Source of the DNA: Enorma burkinafasonensis
GTDB taxonomy: Bacteria > Actinomycetota > Coriobacteriia > Coriobacteriales > Coriobacteriaceae
Assembly (NCBI RefSeq): GCF_902150035.1
Contig: NZ_LR597502.1
Location: 1 to 64,000 of the forward strand
Length of the DNA: 64,000 bases
Direction: 5' to 3'
Part shown: piece after piece, positions 2,568 to 64,000 of the stretch
Numbering within the stretch: the stretch's first letter is position 1
Layout of the letters: each line of letters opens with the position of its first letter
Program-made: the position numbers and the translations under genes
The notes under the pieces: model-generated
The model's database searches: none
What the model saw: the letters and a program-made list of their open reading frames with translations, nothing else
What the model was told of the DNA's origin: nothing

Positions 2568-2630
2568 GGTATCTCGGCGCCGGGCCCGCGCCAGATCATA
2601 GGTAAGTCCGATGGATTGGAAGGAGAGGAC

Positions 2631-4052: not shown

Positions 4053-4069
4053 CGGAAAGGACGGATCTC

Positions 4070-5374: not shown

Positions 5375-5705
5375 CGACACGACGATGGACGAGGTCCAGC
5401 TTGCCTGCTTCGACATCATCGCGCACGTGGGCGAGGCCAAGTCGTGCTACATGGAGGCGCTCCGTGCGGCGCGCGCCGGCGAGTTCGACCGCGTCGACGA
5501 GCTCATCCAGAAGGGTTCCGAGCTGTTCGTCGAGGGGCACAACACGCACATGGCGCTCATCCAGCGCGAGGCCGAAACAGGTGACGTCCCTTCGTCCCTC
5601 ATGCTCATGCACGCGGAGTCCCAGCTCATGGATGGAGAGAGCTGCAAGACCTACGTCAAGGAGTTCATCGAGGTCTATCGCGAGCTCAGCGAGCTGAGAT
5701 CCTAG
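5367..5705 (+). CDS. PTS lactose/cellobiose-family EIIA
   Basis: This 112-residue three-helix protein passes phosphate from HPr to EIIB. The conserved block LFVEGHNTHMALIQREAE and the following LMLMHAESQLMD match the family, and His82 aligns with the phosphorylated histidine. In the usual motif HxQDH the Asp binds a metal ion in the trimer core; here the motif reads HAESQ, so both that Asp and the second His are replaced. The start overlaps the end of EIIC by 8 bp, which implies translational coupling. Unlike most related operons, EIIB follows after a 180-bp gap that contains a hairpin. Confidence 0.88.
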   Translation: MSNDTTMDEVQLACFDIIAHVGEAKSCYMEALRAARAGEFDRVDELIQKGSELFVEGHNTHMALIQREAETGDVPSSLMLMHAESQLMDGESCKTYVKEFIEVYRELSELRS

Positions 5706-5745
5706 GCTAACAAGTGCGCCTGCCGCGTCGCTTGCAGGGTATCGT

Positions 5746-5773
5746 GGGCGGCGGTCCCTCCCCACCGCCGCCC
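5746..5773 (+). other. Strong intercistronic hairpin between EIIA and EIIB
   Basis: GGGCGGCGGT (5746-5755) and ACCGCCGCCC (5764-5773) pair perfectly around an 8-base loop. No U-run follows, so it is unlikely to be a simple terminator. It may stabilise or process the operon mRNA, or set the EIIB level independently. The rest of the 180-bp gap shows nothing else. Confidence 0.5.
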
Positions 5774-5885
5774 TGATCCAGGTTTCACGCGACACAGGTC
5801 GCGCGAGTGGGCTCGGGGTCGTTCACCGCGAGCCATGAAGGCGGTCCGACGGAAGTCGTCGGGCACGAGCAAAGGAGTGTTTGCT

Positions 5886-6194
5886 ATGGAAAAGATCATG
5901 CTGGTCTGCAACGGCGGGATGTCGACGAGCATCATGGCCCGCCAGATCCGCGAGGCTTCCGAAGGCCGCTACGAGGTCAAGGCGTACTCCGAGAGCGTCT
6001 ACGCGAACAACCTCGAGGACGACATCAAGGTGATCCTCATCGCCCCGCAGATCCGTTTCCTGGTGGATGACATCCAGAAGATCGCCGGCCCGAATCGCGT
6101 GGTCCAGGCGATCGACATGCAGACCTACGGGCTCATGGACGGCAAGAAGGTCACGAAGCTCATCGACAAGATCTACAAGGAGCACAACCTGTAG
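5886..6194 (+). CDS. PTS lactose/cellobiose-family EIIB
   Basis: This 102-residue protein carries the phosphocysteine loop MLVCNGGMSTSIMA, with the active Cys near residue 8, and has the size of a stand-alone EIIB of the lactose/cellobiose family. It takes phosphate from EIIA and gives it to the sugar bound by EIIC. I chose ATG 5886 because an AAAGGAGT ribosome-binding site precedes it and the P-loop normally begins a few residues from the N-terminus; a start at 5835 would add 17 residues with no counterpart in the family. It is the last gene of the operon, and a strong terminator follows. Confidence 0.92.
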   Translation: MEKIMLVCNGGMSTSIMARQIREASEGRYEVKAYSESVYANNLEDDIKVILIAPQIRFLVDDIQKIAGPNRVVQAIDMQTYGLMDGKKVTKLIDKIYKEHNL

Positions 6195-6277
6195 CGATCG
6201 GTGCCGGCTGCCGCGGCCGATCGCGGCCCGGCGGTCGTCAGGTCGTCCAGCCATCGATCCCGCGTCCATGCGAGCGG

Positions 6278-6309
6278 AAAAGAGCCTTTGGATTTCCAAA
6301 GGCTCTTTT
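6278..6309 (+). terminator. Rho-independent terminator of the PTS operon
   Basis: AAAAGAGCCTTTGG and CCAAAGGCTCTTTT form a perfect 14-bp stem with a 4-base loop; the 3' arm supplies the T-run. The symmetry would let it act on both strands. Confidence 0.9.
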
Positions 6310-6409
6310 GCTATCTAGCGCGCCTGTTGCGTGCGATGGACTATGATACCTAGGCGTTTCCTACCGACATCCGCACTCAAATCGAACTCGTTTTGGTGGT
6401 TTCAACCTG

Positions 6410-7057
6410 ATGGATACCGTTTTCGTCATCGGCACGATAGCTTCGGGCAAGTCGACGGCCGCCCGCTACTTCGAGCGCCTCGGCGCCCGCCGCATCGACC
6501 TCGACCGCTTCGCTAAGGACCTCTACCTTCCGGGCTCCGAGCTCGTGGGCGAGCTGGCCGCTGAATTCGGCGTCGAGGTCATAAGCGAGGACGGCGGCAT
6601 TGACACCAAGCGCCTTGCCGCACGGGCCTTCGGGACCGCGGAATCCACGGTGCGTCTCAACGAGATCGTCCATCCCGTGCTGCGGGAACGCCTGGCGCAG
6701 GTGCTGCTTCCCGTGCCCTGCGCGTCGATGGCCGCTCCCCGCTGCCCGTTCACGGTCGTCGAGGCGTCGGTGCCCGCAGCCGTGCGCGACCTCTTCCCGC
6801 TCGCCGACGAGGTCCTCGCCATCGTCGCCCCGCTCGAGGTGCGCCGTTCGCGCGCGATCGGGCGCGGCATGGACCCTGCGGACTTCGACCGCAGGGCGGC
6901 GCTGCAGCCCTCCGACGAGGGGATCGCGGCCATGGCGACCTCCGTCATCGAGAACACCTTCGAGGACGAGGACGGCTTCACCGGTGCGCTCAGGCGATGG
7001 CTGCTTGCACGCGGCGTCGCGATCGATGCCGACGAGGCGGCGGTGTCCCATGCCTAG
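6410..7057 (+). CDS. coaE: Dephospho-CoA kinase
   Basis: This 215-residue P-loop kinase phosphorylates the 3'-hydroxyl of dephospho-CoA, the last step of coenzyme A synthesis in the cytoplasm. The Walker A motif GTIASGKST lies at residues 8-16, followed by the conserved RIDLDRFAKDLY and, further on, LNEIVHPVLRERL, all typical of CoaE. No clear Shine-Dalgarno site precedes ATG 6410. A TATGAT hexamer at 6342-6347 may belong to its promoter, but I found no matching -35. Its 3' end overlaps the transglycosylase gene by 8 bp, so the two are probably co-translated. Confidence 0.9.
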   Translation: MDTVFVIGTIASGKSTAARYFERLGARRIDLDRFAKDLYLPGSELVGELAAEFGVEVISEDGGIDTKRLAARAFGTAESTVRLNEIVHPVLRERLAQVLLPVPCASMAAPRCPFTVVEASVPAAVRDLFPLADEVLAIVAPLEVRRSRAIGRGMDPADFDRRAALQPSDEGIAAMATSVIENTFEDEDGFTGALRRWLLARGVAIDADEAAVSHA

Positions 7058-50585: not shown

Positions 50586-50642
50586 CTTGCCGATTTGCTC
50601 CGTGAGAAGTGGGCTTATAGGACAGAACCTCCTTGCAGGTAA

Positions 50643-50681
50643 AGATTATCCAAAATAGAATAATGCTGTATAGAATAATCT
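50643..50681 (+). repeat. Short direct and inverted repeats upstream of the ATPase gene
   Basis: ATAGAATAAT occurs at 50655-50664 and 50670-50679 (15-bp period). The outer parts AGATTAT (50643-50649) and ATAATCT (50675-50681) are inverted. The AT-rich segment lies 33 bp before the ATG and may hold the promoter and a binding site. Confidence 0.4.
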
Positions 50682-50713
50682 CTCAGGATAGTTATGCTGC
50701 TGAGGAGGTCGCG

Positions 50714-52129
50714 ATGCGTGCCTTTGTCGATCGAGAGCGAGAACTGCAGACCCTTGAGCGCGAATATGCGCGAGAGGAGGCTTCCTTCGTGGTGGTCTAC
50801 GGTAGGCGCCGTGTGGGAAAGACCGAGCTCATCTCGCGTTTCATTCAGGACAAGCGCGCCCTCTATTACCTTGCGACGGAAGAGCCCGAGCTCCAAAACC
50901 TCGAGAGCTTCCAGGCGGTCGCGGCGGATTTCCTGGGGAGCGACTTGCTGCGCTCCGTGCGCATCTCTCGTTGGGAAGACGTCTTTCGCGAACTCGCCCG
51001 CACGTGCGATGCCGCGCGCGAGCGCGCGGTGATCGTCATCGACGAGTTCCAATACCTCGGCAAGGCGAACCCGGCATACCCCTCGATATTCCAGCGCATC
51101 TGGGACACGATCCTCAAAGACGCGAACGTGATGCTCATTCTTTGCGGCTCGCTCGTCTCGCTCATGAAAGACCAGGTGCTATCCGAAGAAAGCCCTCTGT
51201 ACGGGCGCAGGACGGCGCAGATCCGGATGGGGCAGATTCCGTTTTCGCATTACCGCGAGTTCCTTCCGGGGCATACGACGCGCGCCCTCGTGGAGCACTA
51301 TGCCGTGACCGGCGGCGTGCCCAAGTACATCGAGCTGTTCGAGGACGAGGATGACATCTTCGCCGCGATTTCCGCGAACGTGCTCGATCGCAACGGGTTC
51401 CTCTATGATGAGCCGAACTTCTTGCTCCAGCGTGAAGTGCCCGATATAGGTACGTATTTCGCGCTCATCCGTGCGATCGCGGGCGGCGCGCACCGTCCGA
51501 GCGAGATATCGCGCGCGTTCGGTATGAAGCAGACGAGCCTGAACAAGTATCTCAAGACGCTCATCGATCTGGATGTCTTGCAACGAGAGGTACCGGTTAC
51601 GGAGGGCAACCCCGACAAGAGCAAGAAGAGCCTGTACATCATCAAGGACAACTTCCTGCAGTTCTGGTTCAAATTCGTATTGCCCAACGTAAGCTACCTG
51701 GAGACAGGTCGGACGGCTGCGGTAGAGCGACGCATCCGGGAGCATTTCATCGATAACCACGTTGCGTTTGTGTACGAGGGCGTCTGCCGGGAACGGTTGT
51801 GGGATATGGTCGATTCCGGGGCGTTGGGTTTCGTTCCGGAGCGCGTCGGCCGCTGGTGGTCGGGTGGTGGCGAGATTGATGCCGTCGCCCTAAGTGCCAC
51901 CGAGAAGCGTGTCGTATGGGGCGAGTGCAAGTTCTGGAAGGACCCTGTGGGGGCAAATGTGCTGCGCGATCTTGAGGGCAAGGCGGCGCGCGTCCCATGG
52001 GAGAAGGGCGACCGCACGGAACAGTTCGTGCTCTTCAGCGTGAGCGGGTTTACCAACGGGTTTCGCAAAATCGCAAGCGCCAGGGACAACGTGCTGCTGG
52101 TGGATGATTCGATTGAGGAGGCGTTATGA
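50714..52129 (+). CDS. AAA ATPase with DUF234-like C-terminal domain
   Basis: This 471-residue protein resembles the archaeal-ATPase group common in archaea and anaerobic bacteria. Walker A is YGRRRVGKTEL (about residue 29) and Walker B is AVIVIDEFQYLG. A winged-helix segment follows the ATPase core (around SEISRAFGMKQTSLNKYLK), and the C-terminal part (about 320-471), with GEIDAVALSATEKRVVWGECKFW, looks like a DUF234/PD-(D/E)XK nuclease-like fold. The cellular role is unknown. ATG 50714 follows GAGGAGG; earlier ATGs at 50633 or 50663 lack such a site. It is the first gene after the tRNA and overlaps the next gene by 4 bp. Confidence 0.8.
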   Translation: MRAFVDRERELQTLEREYAREEASFVVVYGRRRVGKTELISRFIQDKRALYYLATEEPELQNLESFQAVAADFLGSDLLRSVRISRWEDVFRELARTCDAARERAVIVIDEFQYLGKANPAYPSIFQRIWDTILKDANVMLILCGSLVSLMKDQVLSEESPLYGRRTAQIRMGQIPFSHYREFLPGHTTRALVEHYAVTGGVPKYIELFEDEDDIFAAISANVLDRNGFLYDEPNFLLQREVPDIGTYFALIRAIAGGAHRPSEISRAFGMKQTSLNKYLKTLIDLDVLQREVPVTEGNPDKSKKSLYIIKDNFLQFWFKFVLPNVSYLETGRTAAVERRIREHFIDNHVAFVYEGVCRERLWDMVDSGALGFVPERVGRWWSGGGEIDAVALSATEKRVVWGECKFWKDPVGANVLRDLEGKAARVPWEKGDRTEQFVLFSVSGFTNGFRKIASARDNVLLVDDSIEEAL

Positions 52130-53009: not shown

Positions 53010-53294
53010 ATGGCCACCGCAGCTGCGACCGAGTCCATCTCTGCGAAGCTTCGCAAGGACGAGAAGGACCGCTTCACCATGATCTGCGACGAGATCGGTA
53101 CCTCTCCGAGTAACGCGATCCGCATGTTCGTGTCTGCGTTCAACCGCCGCGGCGGCTTCCCATTCGATCCGTCCAATCCGTATGGGTTTAGCCGGGAGAC
53201 GCTTGCCGCGATGGATGATGCGGTGACGGGCAGGAACCTCTCCGGCCCCTATCGCACCGTCAAGGAGGCACTGGCCGCGCTCGACGAGGAGTAG
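53010..53294 (+). CDS. dinJ: Antitoxin of the RelB/DinJ family
   Basis: This 94-residue protein has an N-terminal ribbon-helix-helix (ESISAKLRKDEKDRFTMICDEIGTSPSNAIRMFV), the DNA-binding and dimerisation part of RelB/DinJ antitoxins, and a C-terminal tail expected to wrap around the toxin. It neutralises the following YafQ-type toxin and represses their shared promoter. An AAGGAG site precedes ATG 53010. The region at 52970-52990 has TATAC/ATATAT sequences that may be the promoter and operator. The two genes are 3 bp apart. Confidence 0.9.
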   Translation: MATAAATESISAKLRKDEKDRFTMICDEIGTSPSNAIRMFVSAFNRRGGFPFDPSNPYGFSRETLAAMDDAVTGRNLSGPYRTVKEALAALDEE

Positions 53295-53297
53295 GCC

Positions 53298-53576
53298 ATG
53301 CTGGAGCTGAAGTTCACTGCCAAGTTCAAGAAGGACTACAAGCGCGTGAAGCGGCAGGGCAAGGACCTCTCGAAGCTCGAGCGGATCCTAGAGGCGCTTA
53401 TTCGTGAGGAGGCTCTTCCCGATGCGATGCGTGACCATTCGCTCGGCGGGGCATATCACGGTCATCGCGAGTGCCACATCGAGCCTGACTGGCTGCTTAT
53501 CTATCGTGTGTATGAGGAAGGGCTCGTCCTCATCGCTACACGCACGGGGAGTCATAGTGAGTTGTTGGGGCTGTAG
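53298..53576 (+). CDS. yafQ: mRNA interferase toxin of the YafQ family
   Basis: This 92-residue protein matches YafQ, a ribosome-dependent endoribonuclease. Residues that correspond to the E. coli catalytic set are His47 (DHSLGG), His60 and Asp64 (ECHIEPDWLLIY) and His86 (TGSHSELL), so it should be active. It follows the antitoxin at 3 bp. Its 3' end overlaps the end of the convergent HNH pseudogene by about 40 bp. Confidence 0.93.
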   Translation: MLELKFTAKFKKDYKRVKRQGKDLSKLERILEALIREEALPDAMRDHSLGGAYHGHRECHIEPDWLLIYRVYEEGLVLIATRTGSHSELLGL

Positions 53577-54389
53577 GGGTCGGTAGAGAGCAAAGAGGTT
53601 GTTTCGCGCGGCGCTCGAAGACGCGGTCGTTGTGGTAGTGGATGAAGTCGAGGCTCGGCCAGGTCGACTCGTCGCTGCCTGGCAGGGCGATCTTCCTCCC
53701 GGCGAAGGCGTAGAGCCACTTCTCGTTCGCGGGCGTGTGCGGCACGTGCGAGGAGACCACGACGCGGTAGCGGTCGTCGAGCGTGATGAGGCCGCGGTCG
53801 AAGGCGCGGTCGTGCAGCGCGTTGAGCAGAAGACCGTTCGACGACATGAGGCGCTCGCTCGGCGTGGCCGCCGCCCACGGCTTGATGTGGCTCGCCGTGA
53901 GCAGGGCGGGAATGTCGATGCCCGTGAGACAGCAGGTGCCGCCATAGTTGGAAAGGAGCACGCTGCGGAAGTAGTCCTGGTTGACGCGTGTGCAAACCTG
54001 CTCAACGCGTTCCAGTCCGAGCTGCTGTGGCTGATTGGGGCGAGAAGAACCTGAGGTCTCGATCTCCCCGTCGTAGGAGATTCGGATCCCGATCTGCTCG
54101 AGCTCCACATCGCCTCAAACATGGTCGCGTCCGGATCGGCGAGGTACTCGCTCATCACCTGCGCGTCCATTGCGTCAGCATGGGTAAAGCCGCTGCCCGA
54201 ACGGTTGGGATCACATGCCTTGAGGTTGGCAATCTTGTAGCAAACGGCTGAGACCTTGCGGCTTATCGCCCCTGCGAAGAGCTGAATCTCGGCGTCGCTG
54301 TCATCCCAGTTCTTCCGGGGAAGGGGAGGGCACAGGTAGAAGGCAAGCGCCATGAGGGTCTCTTGGCGTGACCAGTTCCTGCGGGACAT
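53536..54389 (-). pseudogene. HNH endonuclease gene broken by a frameshift
   Basis: The N-terminal part starts at ATG 54389 (after AGGAGG), encoding MSRRNWSRQETLMALAFYL to DATMFEAM. The reading continues in the next frame from about 54110 as VELEQIGIRISYDGE. That second part holds the HNH core: CCLTGIDIPALLTASHIKPW and LLLNALHDRAFDRGLITLDD. At the junction a single missing base (GCGATGTGG; with one more G it reads A-D-V) would restore one frame of about 284 residues. The family includes restriction-like HNH_2 nucleases. Either the gene is inactive here or the base is a sequencing error. The last codons overlap the yafQ gene. Confidence 0.7.
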
Positions 54390-54485
54390 CGCTCCTCCTC
54401 TCATCTGCGTTCAGGATACCAAGAGGAGCCAATTGCTCATAGAGGTCATCTGCTCTTCGGCGGAGCCACCTGTGGAGGTTGCCCT

Positions 54486-55661
54486 CTATTCGTTTGGAAG
54501 AAGATAGAGAGCCTTCGAGTCAGCGGCAATTGCTAGAGGCTTCTCGCGTAGCGAGGCGAGGGACTCGACTCCTTGCTGTAGGGGGAGCACCTCGGGAGAG
54601 CTCATGCTGCGCAGTTGAGCCATGAGGGAATCGGTGATTCCCTCATTGAATTTGCCGATCTCTTCCCCAGCGCCCTTGAGTGCTTCGTCAACGGGGGTTG
54701 CCTCTCCGAGGGGCGTCTGCGAAAGAAATCCGCCGAGCGCTTTACCGGCATCAGCAATGCCACCCAGTACGGCAGAGTCAAGCGAGTTGCGAGCGCCCTC
54801 TTCAACGGCGTTATAGCACTCGGTATAGAGCTCGCGATACGCGAGGCCATGGGCGGAGATTCGCTCGGACACCGAGCGCAGGTAGGCAGCGTCGTTGTTT
54901 CTGCTTAGAAGAGGCTCGAGGAACGATGAGAGGGCGTGGGTGTAGACTGCGAGACGGTATTCAGCAAGATGGTCAACAAGCTCGGAGAGACGAGCCTCTA
55001 CGGATGCCCTTATCTCGATGGGACCTCCGTTGAGCTTTCCTCTGATCTGAGCTCGTTGAAGCGTTGCGATAGCATCAGCCTGTTTTCTGATTTCGAGTAC
55101 CTGTGCGTGCGAGCTCTGCATGAAGGTGTCGTTCGACCAGTTGAAGCGATAGTCCCGAGCAATATCGGCAAGAGCCTGGAGAGCTCCTCGGAGCTCGGCT
55201 TTGTCTCGCTGCTGTAGGTACTCGAACATTTCTTCCTGCGCGCGCTGCATCGAGTCGAGCTTTTGCGACACAACCATGAGAGTGGCGGCCATCATGAGCG
55301 TTACGGGATCAACGACGACGGCGGTAGCCTGCGCAGCCTCGGCAACATGGAGGCGCGCCTGTCCAAAGCCTTTTATTGGATCCCGGAAGGAGCCGAGAAG
55401 CCCGGACCCATCATTGAATGCCTGTAATACAGCGGGAGGTATCGGATTGCCGACGGCGTCAGTGACTGTGAAAAGGACCGGTGCCGCAGCGGAAGCAACA
55501 GCGGGAGCGAGTGCGCTGGCCAGTGAGGATAGCCCCAGTCCAAGAGCTGGCAACCGGTCAAAGGGGATGCAAAGGGCATCATCAGTCTTAACCTCGATGT
55601 CGGTCGGAACGAGGCCGAGGACAAGCTCGTCGGGCTTCTGGATGCTCTTCTTCTCGCACAT
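54486..55661 (-). CDS. Protein of unknown function with hydrophobic and coiled-coil segments
   Basis: This 391-residue protein matches no family I know. After a polar start it has a hydrophobic Ala/Ser-rich stretch (about 42-65), a second hydrophobic stretch (ATAVVVDPVTLMMAATLMVV, about 115-135), then a helical part rich in Gln, Glu and Arg (about 140-260) that may form a coiled coil, and a Gly/Ala segment near 310. ATG 55661 follows GAGAGGTAAATC. It stands alone, divergent from the DUF4268 gene with a 113-bp gap between start codons. Moderate GC and its setting among nuclease and restriction genes make a defence role possible, but this is only by association. Confidence 0.55.
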   Translation of the reverse strand: MCEKKSIQKPDELVLGLVPTDIEVKTDDALCIPFDRLPALGLGLSSLASALAPAVASAAAPVLFTVTDAVGNPIPPAVLQAFNDGSGLLGSFRDPIKGFGQARLHVAEAAQATAVVVDPVTLMMAATLMVVSQKLDSMQRAQEEMFEYLQQRDKAELRGALQALADIARDYRFNWSNDTFMQSSHAQVLEIRKQADAIATLQRAQIRGKLNGGPIEIRASVEARLSELVDHLAEYRLAVYTHALSSFLEPLLSRNNDAAYLRSVSERISAHGLAYRELYTECYNAVEEGARNSLDSAVLGGIADAGKALGGFLSQTPLGEATPVDEALKGAGEEIGKFNEGITDSLMAQLRSMSSPEVLPLQQGVESLASLREKPLAIAADSKALYLLPNE

Positions 55662-55774
55662 GATTTACCTCTCGACCCACTTGATGTTTACGGGATTTTG
55701 CTTGGGTTTCCACGTGACCCGTTATGAGAGAATTATGTCAGAAATCTGAGCTCGCGATATTGAGGGGGCAAAAG

Positions 55775-56737
55775 ATGTCTGCCAAGCTTCCGCTTAGTGA
55801 GATTGAGCAGGTACGACTTCGAGATATATGGCCTAACGAGGCGAACGACTTCACTACGTGGCTTGCTGTTCCAGAAAACCTTTCCAAGCTCGGAAATGCG
55901 TGTGGTATAGAGTTGGAGCCCTACGAAACCGAGAGCGCGGTGGGCACCTTCTCAGTGGATATCTTTGCTCGAGAACTTGATACCGAGCGACCAGTTGTCA
56001 TCGAGAATCAATTGGAGGACACCAATCACGACCATCTTGGCAAGCTCATAACGTACGCGGCTGGCAAGGACGCTGGCATCATCATCTGGGTTGTTAAGAG
56101 GGCCCGCGGTCCGCATCGCAAGGCAATCGAGTGGCTAAACAATCACACAGTTGGGAGCTATGCGTTCTTCCTGGTTGAAGTCGAGGCCTGGCGAATCGAT
56201 CAATCTAATCCAGCAGTTGTGTTCAAGGTCGTTGAGTCTCCAAATGATTGGGCGCGAGATGAGAAGGGCAAGACAGGCCTCACTCAAACTGAACGTGCGG
56301 CGTTCGAATATTGGCAGACGTACTATGAGCTGGCCAGCTCAGATGCCTACGGTGACTCCGACGAGCTGTTGCCAGATGCAAGCAAGAAGCTCTGGATAAA
56401 ACTTAACGTCGGATCTGCGAAGTACTTCCTTGCTGTTCAGATTTACTCTCAATATAAGAGGGTGAGCGTTGAGGTTCGTATGACGGACGACGCGTTCTCT
56501 TCCTTCATCAACGCGCACATTGACGAACTCATGTTGGCGCTGGGCCAAGACTATGATGAATATGAGACGCGGAAAGAGAACAAGGGGATTGTCTTTCATA
56601 AGACCGGCTGCGACGTGGTGAATGGGCCTCGCGAGAAATGGCCAGAGTATATCGGCTGGCAGCGAGATAAGCTTGGCAAACTATATGCTGTGGTGGGCAA
56701 GCTTGAGGCTGAATTCGAACAGGGGAGCACGTCGTGA
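55775..56737 (+). CDS. DUF4268 protein with PD-(D/E)XK nuclease-like N-terminus
   Basis: This 320-residue protein has an N-terminal part with VGTFSVDIFARELDTERP followed by VVIENQLEDTNHDHLGK, the D...ExQ pattern of the PD-(D/E)XK nuclease fold, and a C-terminal DUF4268 domain (about 190-320) ending in REKWPEYIGWQRDKLGKLYA. Such proteins are often found near restriction systems; the reaction is not known. I chose ATG 55775 after GAGGGGG; the upstream ATG at 55724 lacks a site. The next gene starts within its stop codon (GTGA), so the pair is coupled. It points toward the silent hsdS cassette. Confidence 0.75.
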   Translation: MSAKLPLSEIEQVRLRDIWPNEANDFTTWLAVPENLSKLGNACGIELEPYETESAVGTFSVDIFARELDTERPVVIENQLEDTNHDHLGKLITYAAGKDAGIIIWVVKRARGPHRKAIEWLNNHTVGSYAFFLVEVEAWRIDQSNPAVVFKVVESPNDWARDEKGKTGLTQTERAAFEYWQTYYELASSDAYGDSDELLPDASKKLWIKLNVGSAKYFLAVQIYSQYKRVSVEVRMTDDAFSSFINAHIDELMLALGQDYDEYETRKENKGIVFHKTGCDVVNGPREKWPEYIGWQRDKLGKLYAVVGKLEAEFEQGSTS

Positions 56738-57402
56738 GCAAAGGCGTCATCTACATCCTCACCAACCCGAGCTTCCCGCAATACGTGAAGATTGGTTACG
56801 CGAGCAACCTGCAGCGTAGGCTCCATGAGCTCAACCGCTCCGAGGCGCTCCCGTACGCGTTTCGGGCATACGCGACCTACGATGTCGACCACAAGCTGAC
56901 GGATAAGGCGCTCCACGAGCTCATCGACCAGCTGAATCCCGACCTTCGCACCATCGAGACCTTCAATGGGAAGACCCGTACCAAGGAGTTCTTCGAGATG
57001 TCTCCCGAGGATGCCTATGCCATCCTTGAGGCCATCGCCCGCATCTCGGGAACGGAGGGCAGGCTCCATCGCGTCACTCCCACTGGCGGGCAGATTGAAG
57101 AGGAGCGCGAGGCGGAGGAGGCCCGCCATGATGCAGAGACTGGAAGGCGAACTCGCTTCCGCTTCTCTATGGTTGGCATCAAGCCTGGCGAGAAAGTGGT
57201 TTTCGCAAACGACCCATCAAAGGTGGCGATCGTTGTTGACGACACGCGCGTCGAGTACAAAGGCGTAACTACTTCGCTCTCTGCACTGGCCAAGGAGTTC
57301 CTGGGCCGCAATAGCGGGGTGCAGGGGCCGCTTCACTTTACTTACGAAGGGGAGCGTCTCTCTGAGAGAAGACTTCGCATGGAGGACGAGAAGAAACTCT
57401 GA
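56734..57402 (+). CDS. GIY-YIG/T5orf172-type nuclease-domain protein
   Basis: This 222-residue protein opens GVIYILTNPSFPQYVKIGYA, the GIY-YIG pattern in the T5orf172/MUG113 form, with the fold running to about residue 110 (TKEFFEMSPEDAYAIL). The C-terminal third (about 140-222), with TRFRFSMVGIKPGEKVVF and a final PLHFTYEGERLSERR, resembles small domains fused to restriction methylases (RAMA-like), which may recognise modified DNA. The start is GTG 56734, overlapping the DUF4268 stop. With its partner it could be a small defence or DNA-processing module. It lies 28 bp before the silent hsdS cassette. Confidence 0.75.
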   Translation: MSKGVIYILTNPSFPQYVKIGYASNLQRRLHELNRSEALPYAFRAYATYDVDHKLTDKALHELIDQLNPDLRTIETFNGKTRTKEFFEMSPEDAYAILEAIARISGTEGRLHRVTPTGGQIEEEREAEEARHDAETGRRTRFRFSMVGIKPGEKVVFANDPSKVAIVVDDTRVEYKGVTTSLSALAKEFLGRNSGVQGPLHFTYEGERLSERRLRMEDEKKL

Positions 57403-57430: not shown

Positions 57431-58831
57431 ATGAGAAGATGCTGGCGATTAGCTGGCGAGTCATTCATCTACACCGCTTCCGATGGGTCGCCCTATGAGA
57501 AGCGCGTGGACGCCAAGGGGCGCGTGCTGAGCGACGAGAGCATCGCGGACGAGGTGCCGTTCGAGCTGCCCGAGGGGTGGTGCTGGGCGAGACTGGAAAG
57601 CGTAATTGACATCGCTTCCAACCTTGTTAACCCAAGAGAATATGAAACCGTCGCGCACGTTGCTCCGGACAACATAGAAAAAGGAACTGGTAAGCTCCTA
57701 GATTGTAGAACGGTTCTTGAGGATAGCGTAAAGAGCAGTAATCACCGCTTCTCATCTGGACAGATTCTCTATTCAAAGATTCGGCCTGCGCTAAAAAAAG
57801 CTGCTATTGCCCCGTTTGACGGCCTCTGTAGTGCAGACATGTATCCACTCGATTCCCATCTGGACACCTCATTTACTCTAATCCTTGTGCTCAGCGACAT
57901 GTTCACCCGTCAAGTGCTCAAAGGTGACACACGCGTCAAGATGCCCAAGACCAATCAGAAAGCGCTACGCGTTGTTCTATTGCCTATTCCGCCCCTCGCC
58001 GAGCAGCGCCGCATCGCGGAGCGCGTCTCCGAGCTCATGCGCCTCGTGGACGCGTACGGCGAGCTGGAGGACGCCCGCGAGGAACTGGACGCGGCCCTGC
58101 CGGACCGCCTGCGCAGGTCCGTCCTCCAGGAGGCCGTCCGGGGCCGCCTGGTGCCCCAGGACCCCTCGGACGAGCCCGCGGGCGAGCTGCTCGGGCGCAT
58201 CCGCGCCGAGCGCCGCGCGCTCGCCGCCGAGGGGAAGGCGAAGCTGCCAAAGGGCGGCGACTCCGTCATCTTCACCGGTTCCGATGGCCGCCGCTATGAG
58301 AAGCGCGTGGACGCGAAGGGACGGGAGCCCGAGCCGGTGTGCATCGAGAGCGAGATCCCCTTCGAGATCCCGGAAGGCTGGGAGTGGACGAGGCTCGGCA
58401 CTGTCTTTTCAATGCAGGCTGGAAAAAACATCAAGGCGTCCGATATTTTAGATAATAAGTCCGTGGAAGCTCTGTATCCGTGCTTTGGTGGGAATGGGAT
58501 TCGAGGATTTGTCTCCAAACCCAATGTCAGCGGAGACCATCCGCTAATTGGGCGACAGGGAGCACTTTGCGGAAATGTTCAGAGAGCAACTGGCGCGTTT
58601 TATGCCACCGAGCACGCTGTTGTTGTTACTACGTTTGCAAGTACGAATGTCGCTTGGGCATGCATGTTCTTAAAAGCGCTTAACTTGAATCAGTACGCAA
58701 CAGCAACAGCCCAGCCCGGTCTTGCGATTTCGAAGCTATGTGAGGTCCTCATTCCATTTCCACCTCTTATGGAGCAGACCCGCATCGTGACCGCCTTAGA
58801 AACGACGTTGGACGTATTCACCAATCAATAG
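57431..58831 (+). CDS. Silent, 5'-truncated type I specificity cassette (hsdS')
   Basis: The frame encodes two target recognition domains (TRD) and the central conserved region of a type I HsdS, but not its first 55 residues. Similarity to the active hsdS starts abruptly at base 57458 (ESFIYTASDG). Before it there is no ribosome-binding site, and the preceding 9 codons are unrelated, so the cassette is probably not translated as it stands. Order: conserved segment (57458-57591), TRD1 (57592-57988), central conserved region (57989-58387), TRD2 (58388-58790), then a short tail. Both TRDs differ from those of the active gene. The 3' end overlaps the convergent recombinase gene by 14 bp. It serves as a donor for DNA inversion. 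Confidence 0.85.
   Translation: MRRCWRLAGESFIYTASDGSPYEKRVDAKGRVLSDESIADEVPFELPEGWCWARLESVIDIASNLVNPREYETVAHVAPDNIEKGTGKLLDCRTVLEDSVKSSNHRFSSGQILYSKIRPALKKAAIAPFDGLCSADMYPLDSHLDTSFTLILVLSDMFTRQVLKGDTRVKMPKTNQKALRVVLLPIPPLAEQRRIAERVSELMRLVDAYGELEDAREELDAALPDRLRRSVLQEAVRGRLVPQDPSDEPAGELLGRIRAERRALAAEGKAKLPKGGDSVIFTGSDGRRYEKRVDAKGREPEPVCIESEIPFEIPEGWEWTRLGTVFSMQAGKNIKASDILDNKSVEALYPCFGGNGIRGFVSKPNVSGDHPLIGRQGALCGNVQRATGAFYATEHAVVVTTFASTNVAWACMFLKALNLNQYATATAQPGLAISKLCEVLIPFPPLMEQTRIVTALETTLDVFTNQ
57458..57591 (+). repeat. Inverted repeat IR1, copy in silent hsdS
   Basis: 134 bp that match the reverse complement of 60958-61091 at 133 positions; the only difference is GAGGGG versus GAGAGG near the end. 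It encodes the conserved segment ESFIYTASDG to WCWAR. Confidence 0.9.
57989..58387 (+). repeat. Inverted repeat IR2, copy in silent hsdS
   Basis: 399 bp aligning without gaps to the reverse complement of 60126-60524, with scattered substitutions. It encodes the central conserved helices and linker of HsdS. Confidence 0.85.
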
Positions 58832-59621
58832 TTGCATCGACTGCGGCGCGCTGTTCGGACGCGGTGCGCCGCAGGTAGATTCGAGTCGTCTCGAGGCTCT
58901 CGTGTCCCATGAGATCAGCCAAGAAAGCAATGTCAGGGTTCCTCTCTATAAAGTTCTTCGCGAAGCGATGACGAAAGGAATGCGGGTACACCACATCTTG
59001 ATCAATGCCGTACCTGGCGGCGCACCGCTTCAAGCCGAGCGAAAGTCCTCTCGCTGTCATGGGCACACTACCTTTCGACGTGAAGATGTAGCCATTCACC
59101 TTCCCAGATTGCATGAACCATTCAATAGCATCCCGCTGCAAACTCATCGGGATATAGATGCGCCTTAGCTTCTGTCCCTTCGATACCAAGTCAAGGTAGC
59201 CGCTGAGCACTGATTCAACAGTAAACTGTCGCAGCTCGCTGATGCGGGCGCCGGTTCCTGCCAGGAACCGGATTACGAAATGCCAGAACAGGTCGCCGTC
59301 ACGTTTCAGCGAATCTCGCAATAGCTCGTAGTCACTTTGGCTAATTACGTTATCAAGATAGGGCTTCTGCTGCACACGCAGGCTCTTCAGGCGCATTCCA
59401 TCGTATCCGACGAAATCGAGATAGCTGTTAATCGCAGTGATTCTAAGGTTTACGGTCTTCGCGGCGTAACGCGAAGCGAGCCAGTCCTTGTGTGCGAGCA
59501 ACGCTTCATTAGAAAGCCCGTCGCACATCCTGCTCTCAAGCTGCTTTGCAGCATAGAGGTAAGACGCAACCGTATGGTTTGAAAACCCGCAATCGAATAG
59601 ATGGGCTTTGAAATCCTCCAT
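58818..59621 (-). CDS. Tyrosine recombinase within the hsdS inversion locus
   Basis: This 267-residue phage-integrase-family enzyme has the full catalytic set: Arg126 (TGARISEL), probably Lys148 (SKGQKLR), His214 and Arg217 (PHSFRHRF), His240 (LMGHESLETT) and nucleophile Tyr249 (TRIYLRRT). An N-terminal SAM-like core-binding domain covers about 1-85. It lies between two oppositely oriented hsdS copies, like CreX/PsrA-type enzymes that invert hsdS cassettes in streptococci and other gut bacteria, so its likely job is recombination at the shared hsdS repeats. ATG 59621 follows AAAGGGG, but start codon and site are part of a hairpin (59612-59652). It lies inside the predicted inverting segment. 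Confidence 0.9.
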   Translation of the reverse strand: MEDFKAHLFDCGFSNHTVASYLYAAKQLESRMCDGLSNEALLAHKDWLASRYAAKTVNLRITAINSYLDFVGYDGMRLKSLRVQQKPYLDNVISQSDYELLRDSLKRDGDLFWHFVIRFLAGTGARISELRQFTVESVLSGYLDLVSKGQKLRRIYIPMSLQRDAIEWFMQSGKVNGYIFTSKGSVPMTARGLSLGLKRCAARYGIDQDVVYPHSFRHRFAKNFIERNPDIAFLADLMGHESLETTRIYLRRTASEQRAAVDATIDW

Positions 59622-59652
59622 GATTGACCCCTTTCATCAGTCATGGAGGATT
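59612..59652 (-). promoter_or_regulatory. Hairpin covering the recombinase start codon
   Basis: AATCCTCCATGA (59612-59623) and TCATGGAGGATT (59641-59652) are perfect 12-bp inverted repeats with 17 bases between. On the recombinase mRNA the start codon is in the 3' arm and AAAGGGG in the loop, so folding would limit translation. As DNA it might also be a protein-binding site. Confidence 0.55.
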
Positions 59653-59654
59653 GT

Positions 59655-61256
59655 CTACTCAAGAGCGCCCAGCAGAGTGTTAGCTCGATCCATTATTCGT
59701 TTCTGTTCTTTTGCCGGGGGAACTGCGAACAGCAACCTGTCGAGTGCCCTGGCGGATAAGTGCTTTACGGTCGTTTTGCTCGTCTGCTTCCAAATCTGGT
59801 TGAGATACCAGTTGATTGTAAAACTGACGTAATCACGGTCCACTGTTTCACTGAGATAACGGAAGCAGCAAACTCGCTGGTTCAGCAGGGCATCTGGACC
59901 TCTCCATCGCTTACAGATGAACTCCCCGTCCATTCCGACGAGGTCGTCACCCGAGCGAATTAGGTACTCTTCCGACCACTCTCCCGAATAATTTACAGTT
60001 GTATGTACGAGATCACCAGAATTTACATCACGAATACGGATGAGCCCAATAGATTCATCCGTTACGAACTTCGAAGAGTCTGCCGCAAAGCCGTACTGGA
60101 CAGGAACGACTTGAGTAAATCGTGCCCACGCCCAGCCCTCCGGGATCTCGAAGGGGATCTCGTCCTCGATGCACGCCGGCTCGGACTCGCGTCCCTTGGC
60201 GTCCACGCGCTTCTCATAGCGGCGGCCATCGGAACCGGTGAAGATCACCGAGTCGCCGCCCTTGGGGAGCTTCACCTTCCCCTCGGCGGCGAGCGCGCGG
60301 CGCTTTGCACGGATGCGCCCGAGCAGCTCGCTCGCGGGCTCATCCGAGGGGTCCTGGGGCGCCAGACGGCCCCGGACGGCCTCCTGGAGGACGGACCTGC
60401 GCAGGCGGTCCGGCAGGGCCGCGTCCAGCCCCTCGCGGGCGTCCTCCAGCTCGTCGTAAGCCTCCACGAGGGGCATGAGCTCGGAGACGCGCCCCGCGAT
60501 GCGGCGCTGCTCTGCGAGGGGCGGGAGGGGATATAGAAACGCCTGAAAATCTCTTGCCGCAAGATTCGGCTGAGCAGTTCCATTGTTATATCGTTTTATT
60601 TCTTGTGTAGTAACTGGAGAGTCGAACAGCAACTCGATGTATTGAGTGAGTACTAAGTCAGAATTGATAGGACGGACGATCACCAGAGAAGATGCAATGG
60701 CACCGCGCTCAAATGGAAATACGCCGTGCTTTCCCAATGAACCTCTTATGCAGAAAACAGAATCACCCTGCTCGAGCTTGCCTGCCCGCAAGGCTCGATA
60801 CTGGCCTTCGCTTAAGTAGAGCATTTTATTATCTGTAACCCGCCCGTCCTCAATATTGAGAGCGCTGACAAAAGGAATGCCCGAGTCATGTAGTTTTGAC
60901 TTTGCGGGATAACTCTTACCCCTATCCCCATTTAAGAGCATGGATATCGATTCAAGCCTCGCCCAGCACCACCTCTCGGGCAGCTCGAACGGCACCTCGT
61001 CCGCGATGCTCTCGTCGCTCAGCACGCGCCCCTTGGCGTCCACGCGCTTCTCATAGGGCGACCCATCGGAAGCGGTGTAGATGAATGACTCCCCGTTCTT
61101 GGGGAACTTCGCCTTCCCCTCGGCGACGAGGCGATGCTTCTCCTCGCGGATGCGCTCAAGCAGAACGCTCGCGGGCTCGTCGTCGGGATCCTGCGGCACG
61201 AGCTTGCCTTCGACCGCCATCTGGAGTATCGAGTTCTTGAGATCCTTCGCCTTCAT
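59655..61256 (-). CDS. hsdS: Type I restriction-modification specificity subunit (expressed copy)
   Basis: This 533-residue protein directs methylation and cleavage by the HsdM/HsdR complex. It begins KAKDLKNSILQMAVEGKLVPQ, a conserved segment repeated in the middle as RLRRSVLQEAVRGRLAPQ, so the chain has the usual two-fold pattern: conserved N-terminus (1-99), TRD1 (about 100-244), central region (245-377), TRD2 (378-about 500). The ATG at 61256 directly follows the hsdM stop, so it is the copy in the expressed position. Residues 56-99 and 245-377 are encoded in the inverted repeats shared with the silent cassette, and the TRDs between are unlike those of that cassette. Confidence 0.93.
   Translation of the reverse strand: MKAKDLKNSILQMAVEGKLVPQDPDDEPASVLLERIREEKHRLVAEGKAKFPKNGESFIYTASDGSPYEKRVDAKGRVLSDESIADEVPFELPERWCWARLESISMLLNGDRGKSYPAKSKLHDSGIPFVSALNIEDGRVTDNKMLYLSEGQYRALRAGKLEQGDSVFCIRGSLGKHGVFPFERGAIASSLVIVRPINSDLVLTQYIELLFDSPVTTQEIKRYNNGTAQPNLAARDFQAFLYPLPPLAEQRRIAGRVSELMPLVEAYDELEDAREGLDAALPDRLRRSVLQEAVRGRLAPQDPSDEPASELLGRIRAKRRALAAEGKVKLPKGGDSVIFTGSDGRRYEKRVDAKGRESEPACIEDEIPFEIPEGWAWARFTQVVPVQYGFAADSSKFVTDESIGLIRIRDVNSGDLVHTTVNYSGEWSEEYLIRSGDDLVGMDGEFICKRWRGPDALLNQRVCCFRYLSETVDRDYVSFTINWYLNQIWKQTSKTTVKHLSARALDRLLFAVPPAKEQKRIMDRANTLLGALE
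60126..60524 (-). repeat. Inverted repeat IR2, copy in expressed hsdS
   Basis: Partner of 57989-58387 in inverted orientation, 399 bp, no gaps. Recombination between the two copies would exchange TRD2. Confidence 0.85.
60958..61091 (-). repeat. Inverted repeat IR1, copy in expressed hsdS
   Basis: Partner of 57458-57591 in inverted orientation, 133 of 134 identical. Recombination between the copies would exchange both TRDs and turn the recombinase gene around. Confidence 0.9.
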
Positions 61257-62735
61257 CTACGCCTCAATTCCCAGAATCTTACAGATTTGTGCAAGCTTCT
61301 GGTCGATTTCCGCATCGAGTCTCGCACGCTCTTCTTTGTAGTTCCGGATAAGCTCGTCCGGCGGCAGAATCTCCTCCTCCTCGTGAGGGTACCCACACAG
61401 GTCAAGGTTGAAGTTGCCGCTTCTCAGCTCGTCGACGGTGTAGAACTTAGCCTTAGGGTTGCCTTCAACGACGATTTCATGGCGGTCGTCCCACCACGCC
61501 TTTGCGTTGTCGAAGTGCTCAAGCCTGATTGGCTTGGTCTTTGAGAAGTGCTTGTGGCCCTCGGGCATGTCCATGCGGTAGAACCAGACTCCTTCGGAGG
61601 GGCTCGTGTTCTCGAAGAAGAGGATGTTGGTGGTGATGCTCGTGTAGGGGGCGAAGACGCTTTGTGGCATACGCACGATGGTGTGCAGATTCATCTCCTC
61701 CAGAAGGCGGCGCTTGATTTCCACCTTGGCGGCATCTTGGCCGAAGAGGAAGCCGTCGGGGATGATGACCGCCGCACGACCGCCCTTCTTGAGGCGGTAG
61801 AGGATGAGTCCTAGGAACAGGTCAGCCGTCTCAGAGCTGCGCAGTGCTGTGGGAAAGTTGTTCTGGATCGACGCGCTCTCTGATCCTCCGTAAGGTGGAT
61901 TCATGAGGACAACATCGAACTGTCCGTCTTGCTTGTGTCGCCACTCGCGTACGTCGCTCTCAAGGGAGTTGTCGTGGAAGATCTCCGGGTTGTCGATGTC
62001 GTGCAGGAGCATGTTGGTGACGCATAGCAGATAGGGCAGCTGTTTCTTTTCAACGCCGTAGATAGAGTGCGTGTAGAGCTCCTGGTCGGCCGGCGTTTTC
62101 ACCTGCTCCGCGAGAATCTTGAGTGCGCTCGTGAGGAAACCTCCGGTGCCACAGGCGAAGTCGGCGACGCGCTCACCGAGCCTCGGAGCGAGCGCCTGCG
62201 CCATGAAGTCCGTGACGGCGCGCGGTGTGTAGAACTCGCCCGCGTTGCCAGCCGATTGGAGATCCTTGAGGATTGTTTCGTAGATCTCGCCGAAGGCGTG
62301 GCGCTCCTTGTACTCGGTGAAGTCCACGGCGTTATCTATCTCGTTGACTACCTGGCGCAGGAGGATGCCGTCCTTCATATAGTTGTTTGCGTCGGTGAAG
62401 GCCGCCTTTACCACGACTTGCCGTAGAGGAGCGTTGGGCGAGAGCTCGAGATTGGGCAGCGTCTTGAACAGGTCGTTGTTCACGAAGTCGAGAAGCGCAT
62501 CGCCGGTGAGGGCCTTGCCGTCCTTATGGTCTACCGCCCAGCTGTGCCACCGCAGTCTCTCGGGGATGATCGACTCATAGGAGTCGTCGTGGAACTCCCA
62601 CTCTTCCTCCTTGGCATCGTAGATTTTGAGAAAGAACAGCCAAGTCATCTGTTCGATGCGCTGGGCGTCGCCGTTGATGCCTGCATCCTTGCGCATGATG
62701 TTCTGAAGGGTCTTAACAAGAGTTCCGAGGGCCAT
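61257..62735 (-). CDS. hsdM: Type I restriction-modification DNA methyltransferase subunit
   Basis: This 492-residue N6-adenine methyltransferase has the N-terminal HsdM helical domain (GTLVKTLQNIMRKDAGINGD), SAM motif ADFACGTGGFLTSAL, and catalytic NPPY in VLMNPPYGG (Asn279). With two HsdM and one HsdS it methylates the target adenine, and with HsdR it restricts unmodified DNA. Its stop directly adjoins the hsdS start. It lies 18 bp downstream of hsdR, so R-M-S form one operon. Confidence 0.95.
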   Translation of the reverse strand: MALGTLVKTLQNIMRKDAGINGDAQRIEQMTWLFFLKIYDAKEEEWEFHDDSYESIIPERLRWHSWAVDHKDGKALTGDALLDFVNNDLFKTLPNLELSPNAPLRQVVVKAAFTDANNYMKDGILLRQVVNEIDNAVDFTEYKERHAFGEIYETILKDLQSAGNAGEFYTPRAVTDFMAQALAPRLGERVADFACGTGGFLTSALKILAEQVKTPADQELYTHSIYGVEKKQLPYLLCVTNMLLHDIDNPEIFHDNSLESDVREWRHKQDGQFDVVLMNPPYGGSESASIQNNFPTALRSSETADLFLGLILYRLKKGGRAAVIIPDGFLFGQDAAKVEIKRRLLEEMNLHTIVRMPQSVFAPYTSITTNILFFENTSPSEGVWFYRMDMPEGHKHFSKTKPIRLEHFDNAKAWWDDRHEIVVEGNPKAKFYTVDELRSGNFNLDLCGYPHEEEEILPPDELIRNYKEERARLDAEIDQKLAQICKILGIEA

Positions 62736-62753: not shown

Positions 62754-64000
62754 CTATGCGACGTAGAGCTCGTTCTCGAGCTTGCGGGTCGCCTGAATGT
62801 ATTCCTGTTTTCCGCCAAACGCCTTGACGATCTTCATCGGGCTCCCGAAGCGGCGGAACTCCTCCAAGTCGAGCACGCGGGTGTCGTCGAGATCAACAAG
62901 GTTGGAGGTCGCGAACTTGTCGAGAAGCGTCTCAAGGACCTCGCGAGCCACTCCCGAGTACTCGTAGAGGATGCCTTTTTTCTTGACGTTGTTTGCGCGC
63001 TCGCTCCGGGTGAGCGGCTTCTGGTCGTAGGCGATGTGACAGATGAGGTCGAAGTCGCTCATCTGGTCCTGCCCGGACTCTCGGCGCAGCTCATCGAGAA
63101 AGACGCCGTGGGCGCGCAGCTCGTCGATGATGGCCTGCTTCCGGTCCTCGGCGCTCCATGCGACGAGGAAGTGATCGAGGGTGTCAAACTCGCCGAGAAT
63201 GTTTTTACGCGTGTAGTCCTTTAAGCTCTCCGTCACGAGCTGGCCGTCGGAGGAATAGTATTCCACACGCTCTGAAACGATATGGACATCCACGCCGTGG
63301 ACGTGATACTTGATGCGTTTCTTCTCGGCATCGCCGCCCGGGCCGTCGGGCCAATCGGGAGGTGGCGTCACGTCGGGAGGGGAGTCGGGTTTATCCTCAT
63401 CGGGTACCATGGGCCCGTCGGGCGCCGGCTCGAAGATCACGGCGGGTTCCCCGTCGAAGTCGGGGTCGGCGAAGAGGCGCGACGCATCTCGGAAGTCGAG
63501 GATGGTGAAATAGCGCTTATCGTATTCCTCACATATGCGCGTGCCACGTCCGACAATCTGCTTGAACTCGGTCATGCCGTGCTCGCCGAACTTGTTGTCG
63601 AGCACGACGACCTTGCACGTCTTGCAGTTCACGCCCGTGGTGAGGAGCTTGGAGGTGGTGACGATGGTCGGGAACCGCTCGTCGGGGCCAATGAAGTTGT
63701 CGAGCTGTGCCTTGCCCTCTTTGTCGTCCCCCGTGATTTTCATCACGTAGGTCGGGTGGTCCTTGACGATGTCGGCGTTCTCGTTGACGAGCGCCCTGCG
63801 CATGTTCTCTGCATGCTCGATGTCAACGCAGAACACGATGGTCTTTGCGTAGCGGTCGGTTTCCTTGAGGAACTGCGTGATCTTCTTGGCAACCTGCTCG
63901 TTTCTCTCCTTGATGACGATCTCGCTGTCGAAGTCCTGCTTCTCATAGACCCGGTCGGGAAGCTCCTCGCCCCGGTCGTCGATCTTTCCGGCTTCGGGGC
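62754..64000 (-). CDS. hsdR: Type I restriction endonuclease subunit, EcoEI-like (C-terminal part; 5' end beyond window)
   Basis: About 415 residues of the C-terminal half are visible; the frame is open to the window edge. It holds the second helicase domain (KTIVFCVDIEHAENMRRAL, VTTSKLLTTGVNCKT, motif VI QIVGRGTRI) and then a Pro/Asp-rich linker and a helical C-terminal domain like that of EcoEI R. The enzyme translocates DNA using ATP and cuts at distance when the target is unmethylated. The DEAD box and nuclease domain would lie beyond 64000, so I cannot judge if the gene is intact. Confidence 0.92.
   Translation of the reverse strand, partial: PEAGKIDDRGEELPDRVYEKQDFDSEIVIKERNEQVAKKITQFLKETDRYAKTIVFCVDIEHAENMRRALVNENADIVKDHPTYVMKITGDDKEGKAQLDNFIGPDERFPTIVTTSKLLTTGVNCKTCKVVVLDNKFGEHGMTEFKQIVGRGTRICEEYDKRYFTILDFRDASRLFADPDFDGEPAVIFEPAPDGPMVPDEDKPDSPPDVTPPPDWPDGPGGDAEKKRIKYHVHGVDVHIVSERVEYYSSDGQLVTESLKDYTRKNILGEFDTLDHFLVAWSAEDRKQAIIDELRAHGVFLDELRRESGQDQMSDFDLICHIAYDQKPLTRSERANNVKKKGILYEYSGVAREVLETLLDKFATSNLVDLDDTRVLDLEEFRRFGSPMKIVKAFGGKQEYIQATRKLENELYVA

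Follow-up and report, generated by a model that had tools for sequence, protein, structure and literature searches.

Neighbouring DUF4268 and GIY-YIG-RAMA genes of Enorma burkinafasonensis as probable separate cargoes of restriction-modification loci

Introduction

The window analysed here was a stretch of 64,000 nucleotides (nt) from Enorma burkinafasonensis (contig NZ_LR597502.1, positions 1 to 64,000 of the forward strand). Two overlapping genes at 55775-57402, encoding a DUF4268 protein and a GIY-YIG protein, lie beside a type I restriction-modification (R-M) locus. An initial annotation suggested that they may form either a separate two-gene defence module or an accessory that reads the methylation of the neighbouring R-M system. 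The question was whether the two proteins act together, serve that system or travel independently. With modest confidence, the results favour the last reading: in this window, two nuclease genes that are each an independent cargo of R-M and defence loci probably happen to adjoin, and the GIY-YIG protein, which has a modelled C-terminal RAMA domain (GIY-RAMA), is probably an R-M-associated accessory nuclease. The two open reading frames (ORFs) and their domains are as follows (aa, amino acids; AF2, AlphaFold2).

55775..56737, + strand: DUF4268 protein, 320 aa (PADLOC PDC-S11); ORF and family matches
55823..56218, + strand: N-terminal PD-(D/E)XK-like domain, residues 17-148 of the DUF4268 protein; AF2 model and residue counts
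56306..56701, + strand: DUF4268 domain proper, residues 178-309; Pfam match
56734..57402, + strand: T5orf172-type GIY-YIG protein with C-terminal RAMA, 222 aa (PADLOC PDC-S57); ORF, Pfam and PADLOC
56734..57036, + strand: GIY-YIG nuclease domain, residues 1-101 of the GIY protein; Pfam, Slx1 fold and residue counts
57148..57393, + strand: RAMA domain, residues 139-220 of the GIY protein; CcrM and MPND fold matches

The coordinates, strand and overlap given by the initial annotation were confirmed. The stop codon TGA of the DUF4268 ORF (56735-56737) and the start codon GTG of the GIY ORF (56734-56736) share the sequence GTGA, and a purine-rich stretch resembling a ribosome-binding site precedes each start codon. 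The promoter and terminator scan gave results at chance level.

Results

Families, folds and conserved residues

The GIY protein matched the Pfam T5orf172 profile at 7e-14 (52.6 bits, cut-off 20). This profile was matched by every one of the 71 aligned GIY sequences, which comprised 70 of 79 GIY proteins and the window protein after nine long, short or near-duplicate sequences were omitted. Residues 1-220 of its 222 residues matched PADLOC PDC-S57, a single-gene defence candidate, at 1.2e-97, which places both in the same family. The AF2 model built on the 71 sequences had a predicted local distance difference test (pLDDT) score of 86.9. In this model, residues 139-220 resembled the CcrM C-terminal domain (6pbd; Z score 10.9, root-mean-square deviation 2.2, 80 residues) and the MPND RAMA domain (7ydt; Z 8.1, 79 residues), and the N-terminus resembled the GIY-YIG fold of Slx1 (Z 6.7). 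Foldseek gave probabilities of 1.00 and 0.95 for the RAMA part, with weak E-values (0.02 and 0.17). The RAMA part was weakly supported by sequence: Pfam RAMA was matched at E<=1 in 5 of the 71 sequences (best 2.5e-4) and DUF2924 in 27 (best 6e-9), and the window protein itself matched neither at this threshold. The description of a T5orf172-type GIY-YIG protein with a RAMA-like C-terminal part was upheld on this basis. The catalytic motif of GIY-YIG enzymes consists of a conserved Tyr, Arg and Glu. The corresponding residues Y7, R29 and E85 were invariant in 71/71 sequences, as were K19, G21 and H61; K19 occupies the position of the YIG tyrosine, and the motif reads KIG.

The DUF4268 protein matched Pfam DUF4268 at residues 178-309 (4.6e-7) and, over its full length, the single-gene defence candidate PADLOC PDC-S11 (3e-93), which is coupled to a PDC-S57 gene in this window. 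Its homologues occur in genomes, plasmids and viral contigs, and 50 of the 58 listed viral DUF4268 proteins were taken into the alignment. The AF2 model (md205221c96ec; 54 sequences) had a pLDDT score of 89.4. Residues 17-148 were similar to the catalytic domains of NucS (2vld) and EndoMS (5gke), with Z scores of 11.7 each in VIA-align and an identity of only 16-18%; further PD-(D/E)XK matches were PaqCI (Z 8.1) and MspJI (Z 7.9). The motif of NucS is E-x-K. The core PD-(D/E)XK fold was present in the DUF4268 protein, whereas its motif was E-x-Q in place of the usual E-x-K, with Gln third in 54/54 sequences, and its second domain differed from that of NucS/EndoMS. D62, E77, N78 and Q79 were invariant in all 54 sequences. 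The model thus points to a putative NucS-like PD-(D/E)XK nuclease, as the initial annotation had proposed in broader terms. The C-terminal half resembled the YbjN and type III secretion chaperone folds with Z scores of 7-8, which is a common range for this tool, and the modelled likeness may be due to chance. The PDB sequence search with the alignments of both families yielded nothing useful. According to the folds and the invariance of the putative catalytic residues (54/54 and 71/71), both proteins are predicted to act on DNA, in agreement with the initial annotation.

Both families are already catalogued as defence candidates. PDC families are single-gene candidates obtained by "guilt by embedding", and most of them are described as being without experimental validation in the excerpted text of PMC12988326. 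The available sections of two further papers report PDC-S11, one from Streptococcus suis (PMC12813430) and the other from 10 strains of P. aeruginosa (PMC10855318); 90% of the latter were phage-resistant, which is a weak correlation. DUF4268 is also an extra domain in some GmrSD-family type IV restriction enzymes (PMC4619093, partial text); the present protein shares this domain with them and differs in having a NucS-like domain and no Pfam match to DUF262 or DUF1524. GIY-YIG-RAMA fusions, which have the same architecture as the modelled GIY protein, are noted in one sentence of PMC11037411 as a future subject and as possible N6-methyladenine (6mA)-dependent enzymes. Embedding in R-M loci and exchange between R-M types are not mentioned in the excerpted text of that paper. 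In the literature collection searched, no paper combined PDC-S57 with GIY-YIG, PDC-S11 or guilt by embedding; GIY-YIG and the term "RAMA domain" occurred jointly in two papers. The present analysis adds the GIY-RAMA fold, the swapping of R-M partners and an argument about conflict over 6mA.

Neighbourhoods of the two genes

The pairing of the two genes was evaluated in both directions. The GIY genome loci were the best 80 of 433 relatives from a scan of a species-genome collection and were biased to close kin. Besides the window, DUF4268 adjoined GIY in 2 of these 80 loci: L041, with a 91% nt identity to window 53612-57393 and the GTGA overlap retained, and L100, in which DUF4268 was placed after GIY. 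In L112, DUF4268 was two genes away on the other strand. The GIY gene had no adjacent DUF4268 in the remaining 78 loci, a few of which were cut by contig ends. Conversely, no GIY gene was found within five genes of DUF4268 in the 18 genome loci (18 of 23 places outside the own genome), or within three genes of it in the 70 viral-contig loci (L160-L229, which repeat the contigs of L029-L036). These counts gave no support to an obligate DUF4268-GIY pair.

The distribution among genomes was also explored. In the phylum sample (396 genomes), relatives of the DUF4268 protein occurred in 19 genomes, and the GIY protein had one strong match, in its own genome, and three weak partial ones. In the family sample (65 genomes), the GIY protein was present in three. 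No DUF4268 match was found in the genome of L040, a metagenome assembly with a 98% identical GIY protein, or in that of L042. Among 391 sampled genomes of the class of L047 (E 1e-20), GIY occurred in 11 and DUF4268 in 22 (9 of these 22 matches covered the C-terminal part only), and both occurred in none; the chance expectation was about 0.6 genomes or fewer, and the observed zero says little.

Among the best 80 of 433 loci, the pair was seen again in a distant locus only once, in L100, which carries at 452-6802 the four families of L041 in a different order.

Association with R-M genes

The ORFs of the loci were called by our own greedy procedure. R-M genes among them were labelled with crude hidden Markov models (HMMs) that took their seeds from the window, L037, L040 and L041 and were refined by iteration over these same ORFs. 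L053 was excluded from the counts, since its GIY gene overlaps the next ORF (hsdM lies directly downstream). Of the 79 usable GIY genome loci, 73 had an upstream and 77 a downstream neighbour. R-M genes accounted for 39 of the 113 close co-directional neighbours of GIY and for 9 of the 351 genes at distances above 4.5 kb (odds ratio 20, Fisher 1e-18; the 79 loci are not independent). An R-M or methylase-motif gene was present in the same-strand run of GIY in 41 of 82 loci (79 genome, 3 plasmid). The spacing was tight, with a gap of <=30 nt to the co-directional upstream gene in 31/73 loci and to the downstream gene in 34/77. The position of GIY varied: it was found in the hsdM/hsdS gap, in the hsdS/hsdR gap, before hsdM, after hsdR and inside Eco57I operons, and in a Phocaeicola plasmid record it lay between hsdR and hsdM. 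The 74 close neighbours left unlabelled by the HMMs included, according to PADLOC and Pfam, two type III restriction enzymes, one type III methylase, one EcoRI-type methylase, one N6_N4-type methylase, three Fic, three PDC-S04 and two DUF4268 genes. The C5-methylase motif was found in 0 of 77 close ORFs of at least 200 aa and in 0 of 173 distant ones, a comparison that carries no information.

The alignment-based pattern scan of viral contigs revealed seven GIY loci, two of which (L280 and L282) follow an hsdM-hsdS-hsdR set. The single-sequence scan of these contigs with the GIY protein gave no match, and a search of 50,697 phage records (E 1e-5) likewise gave none. The DUF4268 gene was located directly beside a type I gene in at least 7 of its 70 viral loci (L160, L162, L179, L185, L186, L220 and L222). 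The association with R-M genes, which the initial annotation had suggested surveying for hsd loci, extends well beyond the window and is supported for each gene separately. Because the DUF4268 loci lack GIY and some adjoin type I genes, each gene looks like a cargo by itself.

Probable exchange of the GIY gene between unrelated R-M systems

Five close GIY copies (window, L040, L041, L141 and L142) were 79-98% identical. L040 and L041 come from records with the titles Atopobiaceae and Olsenella, and L141 and L142 are from the family of the window. In L040 (98%), GIY precedes hsdM-hsdS-hsdR. In L041 (96%), GIY follows DUF4268, and the pair heads an Eco57I-methylase/helicase operon with 4-nt overlaps at 3 of 4 junctions. 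In L141 (90%), GIY lies between hsdS and hsdR, and in L142 (79%), its neighbour is radC, and an hsd locus that contains hsdS pieces and a recombinase is nearby. The R-M partners of these copies were far less similar, with HsdM 27-69% and HsdS 23-44% identical over the aligned parts (one HsdS pair, 31%, aligned over only 16 residues), or belonged to an Eco57I system. The ratio of nonsynonymous to synonymous substitution rates (dN/dS) of GIY was 0.04-0.07 in 8 of 10 pairs; two pairs gave no dS, and dS was saturated in some. The close copies are under purifying selection (dN/dS about 0.05). For DUF4268, the ratio was 0.20 in one pair. A quick tree was built from 75 GIY proteins, of which 37 carried a label for their R-M context (type I, Eco57I or large methylase). 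On this tree the context changed at least six times; many of the forks had poor support.

The DNA match of L040 around GIY was the ORF alone (56734-57392), and the homologies of L040 and L041 both stop at the GIY 3' end. A second L040 match of 168 nt (window 54254-54421, 87.5%; L040 5-172) was located 2.6 kb upstream in the same orientation. L040 may hence correspond to the chromosomal site of the window, with other genes in place of DUF4268 and of the upstream 391-aa gene. At the hsdS-hsdR junction of the L141 type I family, L261 was empty, L141 contained GIY, L260 contained Fic and YhcG, and L263 contained a Schlafen-type gene; the hsdR genes of the filled L141 and the empty L261 operons were 72% identical. 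GIY is one among several interchangeable passengers.

Across L260-L265, this junction appeared as a cargo slot in the family of the window (empty; Fic and YhcG; Schlafen-type; small ORFs). The Eco57I-type methylase, which is often split, and a helicase whose N-terminus weakly matches T5orf172 were found together in L041 (8660-14042), L042, L049, L100 and L105; GIY-RAMA is part of this R-M operon in some lineages and absent from it in others (L286-L292). In L041, the second half of the methylase matched Pfam Eco57I (2e-12) and the first half had no match, and the T5orf172 match of the helicase (E 0.0019) was just below the Pfam cut-off. GIY as a fixed part of this system was rejected: the helicase was matched in 10 of the 65 family genomes, none of which had a GIY match, not even the four closest (69-74% identity), and the seven operons L286-L292 were free of GIY.

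The type I locus beside the pair

The features downstream of the pair are as follows.

57431..58831, + strand: hsdS-like ORF (silent cassette) without the hsdS1 N-terminal part, two Methylase_S stretches; ORF, Pfam and inverted repeats
57455..57598: outer inverted-repeat arm, pairs with 60951-61094 (144 nt, 97%)
57975-58387 and 60126-60538: inner inverted-repeat arms (413 nt, 92%)
58818..59621, - strand: tyrosine recombinase between the two hsdS copies; Pfam Phage_integrase 6e-23
59655..61256, - strand: hsdS1; Pfam scan
61257..62735, - strand: hsdM; Pfam N6_Mtase 1e-66
62754..63998, - strand: hsdR-like ORF, runs past the window end; assigned from position and reading only

Window 57455-61094 has the appearance of an invertible type I specificity locus, in which two inverted hsdS genes flank the tyrosine recombinase. 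The silent specificity cassette of the initial annotation was recognised in the hsdS-like ORF at 57431, which lacks the N-terminal part of hsdS1 and whose repeats pair with hsdS1. For the hsdR-like ORF, a weak similarity to the HsdR of another type I system (E 2.5e-4) was seen immediately past the end of the window. The closest inverted-repeat arm begins 53 nt past the GIY stop codon, and the DUF4268-GIY pair is placed outside the segment bounded by the repeats.

Discussion

Proposed role of the two proteins

In the proposed mechanism, the GIY gene would be exchanged as an intact unit among unrelated adenine-type R-M operons; its RAMA domain would bind DNA and its GIY-YIG domain would cut or nick it. 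Most likely, the GIY-RAMA protein would act as a second line, directed at DNA that the R-M enzyme has failed to stop. The DUF4268 protein would be a separate NucS-like nuclease of similar lifestyle, coupled to GIY in this lineage. The nuclease activity, the anti-phage role and the second-line action are predictions.

Two systems provide precedents for embedded second-line enzymes. In the available portion of PMC11411939, TgvAB of Vibrio cholerae is described as a type IV system that lies within a type I operon and restricts hypermodified phages. It is similar to GIY-RAMA in that extra nuclease genes are located inside a type I operon, and it is active on modified phages; it differs in being an obligate pair with DUF262/DUF1524 (GmrSD) domains, neither of which was among the Pfam matches of the DUF4268 and GIY proteins. 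PrrC in EcoprrI is a ribonuclease inside a type IC locus that acts once R-M is inhibited (PMC12707154, partial text). PrrC is a cargo of the hsd operon like GIY-RAMA; it is an anticodon nuclease, and none of its domains was among the Pfam matches obtained here.

Several observations weigh against two independent cargoes with an R-M-associated GIY-RAMA. GIY-YIG nucleases also occur as selfish elements. The same-strand run had no R-M gene in the other 41 of the 82 GIY loci, as judged by the crude HMMs. In the sample of the class of L047, 5 of 11 GIY loci had a direct R-M neighbour (L269, L270, L271, L274 and L275) and L047 had none; this sample is not independent of L040-L119, since genome G447 holds L047 and the contigs of L270 and L095 are equal in length. 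Many other defence genes were present among the distant genes of the GIY loci (PADLOC scan of 74 of the 110 sampled genes). The GIY loci are defence islands as a whole, and plain island clustering may explain part of the R-M association. In the window, hsdS1, hsdM and hsdR are on the opposite strand, and the pair lies beside the locus and outside the operon. Finally, L100 regroups all four families of L041 (Eco57I methylase, T5orf172-helicase, GIY and DUF4268), a hint that chance is not the whole explanation of the pairing.

Alternative readings

A dedicated two-gene defence module, in which the proteins form a complex or act as sensor plus effector, would be consistent with the overlap retained in the sister locus L041 and with the renewed adjacency in the distant L100. 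The neighbourhood counts argue in the other direction, with adjacency in 2/80 GIY loci and in 0/88 DUF4268 loci, and no DUF4268 match was found in the genomes of L040 (a metagenome assembly) and L042; the absence of genomes with both genes in the class sample adds little weight alone. The module of the initial annotation is accordingly considered quite improbable. The putative catalytic residues were retained in homologues, whereas conserved pairing was not found. Even less probability is assigned to its other proposal, that GIY-RAMA is an accessory reading the methylation of the neighbouring variable type I system. GIY does adjoin the invertible hsdS locus, and the neighbourhood of L142 is similar, with hsdS pieces and a recombinase. 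However, GIY lies outside the segment between the inverted repeats, and near-identical copies lie beside unrelated R-M systems with other HsdS proteins, or, as in L041, beside an Eco57I system; therefore, the local variable methylation is probably not what is read. This function was judged unlikely from the change of R-M partners.

The RAMA domain could instead be a general 6mA reader and GIY-RAMA a 6mA-dependent (type IV) nuclease. The modelled RAMA fold is compatible with this idea, and the wH-GIY-YIG enzymes tested in the excerpted portion of PMC11037411 depend on 6mA. The operons in which GIY lives, however, carry predicted adenine methylases of varying specificity, so that host DNA would be cut; the MPND RAMA domain, moreover, had no 6mA preference in one study, contrary to an earlier report (PMC9963953, partial text). 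A general 6mA target is hence rather improbable, with the qualification that the argument from host damage would not apply to a target in a specific sequence context or to hypermodified bases. Somewhat more room, within what is still an unlikely reading, is left for a guard that is indifferent to the R-M type: GIY-RAMA would answer a signal common to adenine-type R-M systems and not a methylated sequence, for example DNA that the R-M motor translocates or stalls, or the blocking of an R-M complex by an inhibitor from a phage. If this were true, a single gene could serve equally behind type I, type III and Eco57I/helicase systems.

The GIY-RAMA gene could also be a free-standing homing-type endonuclease that exploits R-M loci and does not defend the host. 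The GIY-YIG/T5orf172 domain, the confinement of the L040 match to the ORF, the breakpoint shared by L041 and L040 at the GIY 3' end and the optional presence of GIY at otherwise similar operons (L261 empty, L141 filled) are in line with homing. T5orf172 is also named 82 times in a paper that deals with nuclease genes of phages located at boundaries of exchange (PMC10448857). The strong association with R-M genes, the varying operon position with tight spacing, the lack of a match in the phage records searched and the small number of viral-contig loci (seven, two of them behind hsdR) speak against homing, and RAMA stands in place of a known homing DNA-binding domain. Homing is thus a doubtful explanation, about as improbable as the general 6mA-dependent nuclease.

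Two unnamed defence candidates gain structural content from this analysis, with PDC-S57 modelled as GIY-YIG plus RAMA and PDC-S11 as a NucS-like nuclease. The close GIY copies provide a natural experiment, in which one near-identical nuclease is found beside R-M systems of differing specificity. This arrangement makes the questions of whether a RAMA nuclease reads 6mA, and of why it spares its own host, directly testable in a small number of laboratory strains.

Other genes upstream of the pair

Further genes were observed upstream of the pair. A 391-aa protein without a Pfam match is encoded divergently at 54486-55661 (- strand); it is kept beside the DUF4268-GIY pair in L041 and is a possible further part of the island. 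An HNH gene, seemingly split across two frames, occupies 53388-54404 and 53536-54108 (both - strand). The gene is related to phosphorothioate-dependent restriction enzymes, with a match to NCBIfam PT-DNA_restrict (5e-21, below the cut-off) that is confined to the C-terminal half. A RelB/YafQ-type toxin-antitoxin pair (Pfam RelB 3e-9, YafQ_toxin 5e-34) is located at 53010-53576 (+ strand) in the same island. An ATPase_2/DUF234 protein is encoded at 50633-52129 (+ strand), with a C-terminal Mrr_cat match just above the Pfam cut-off (2e-4).

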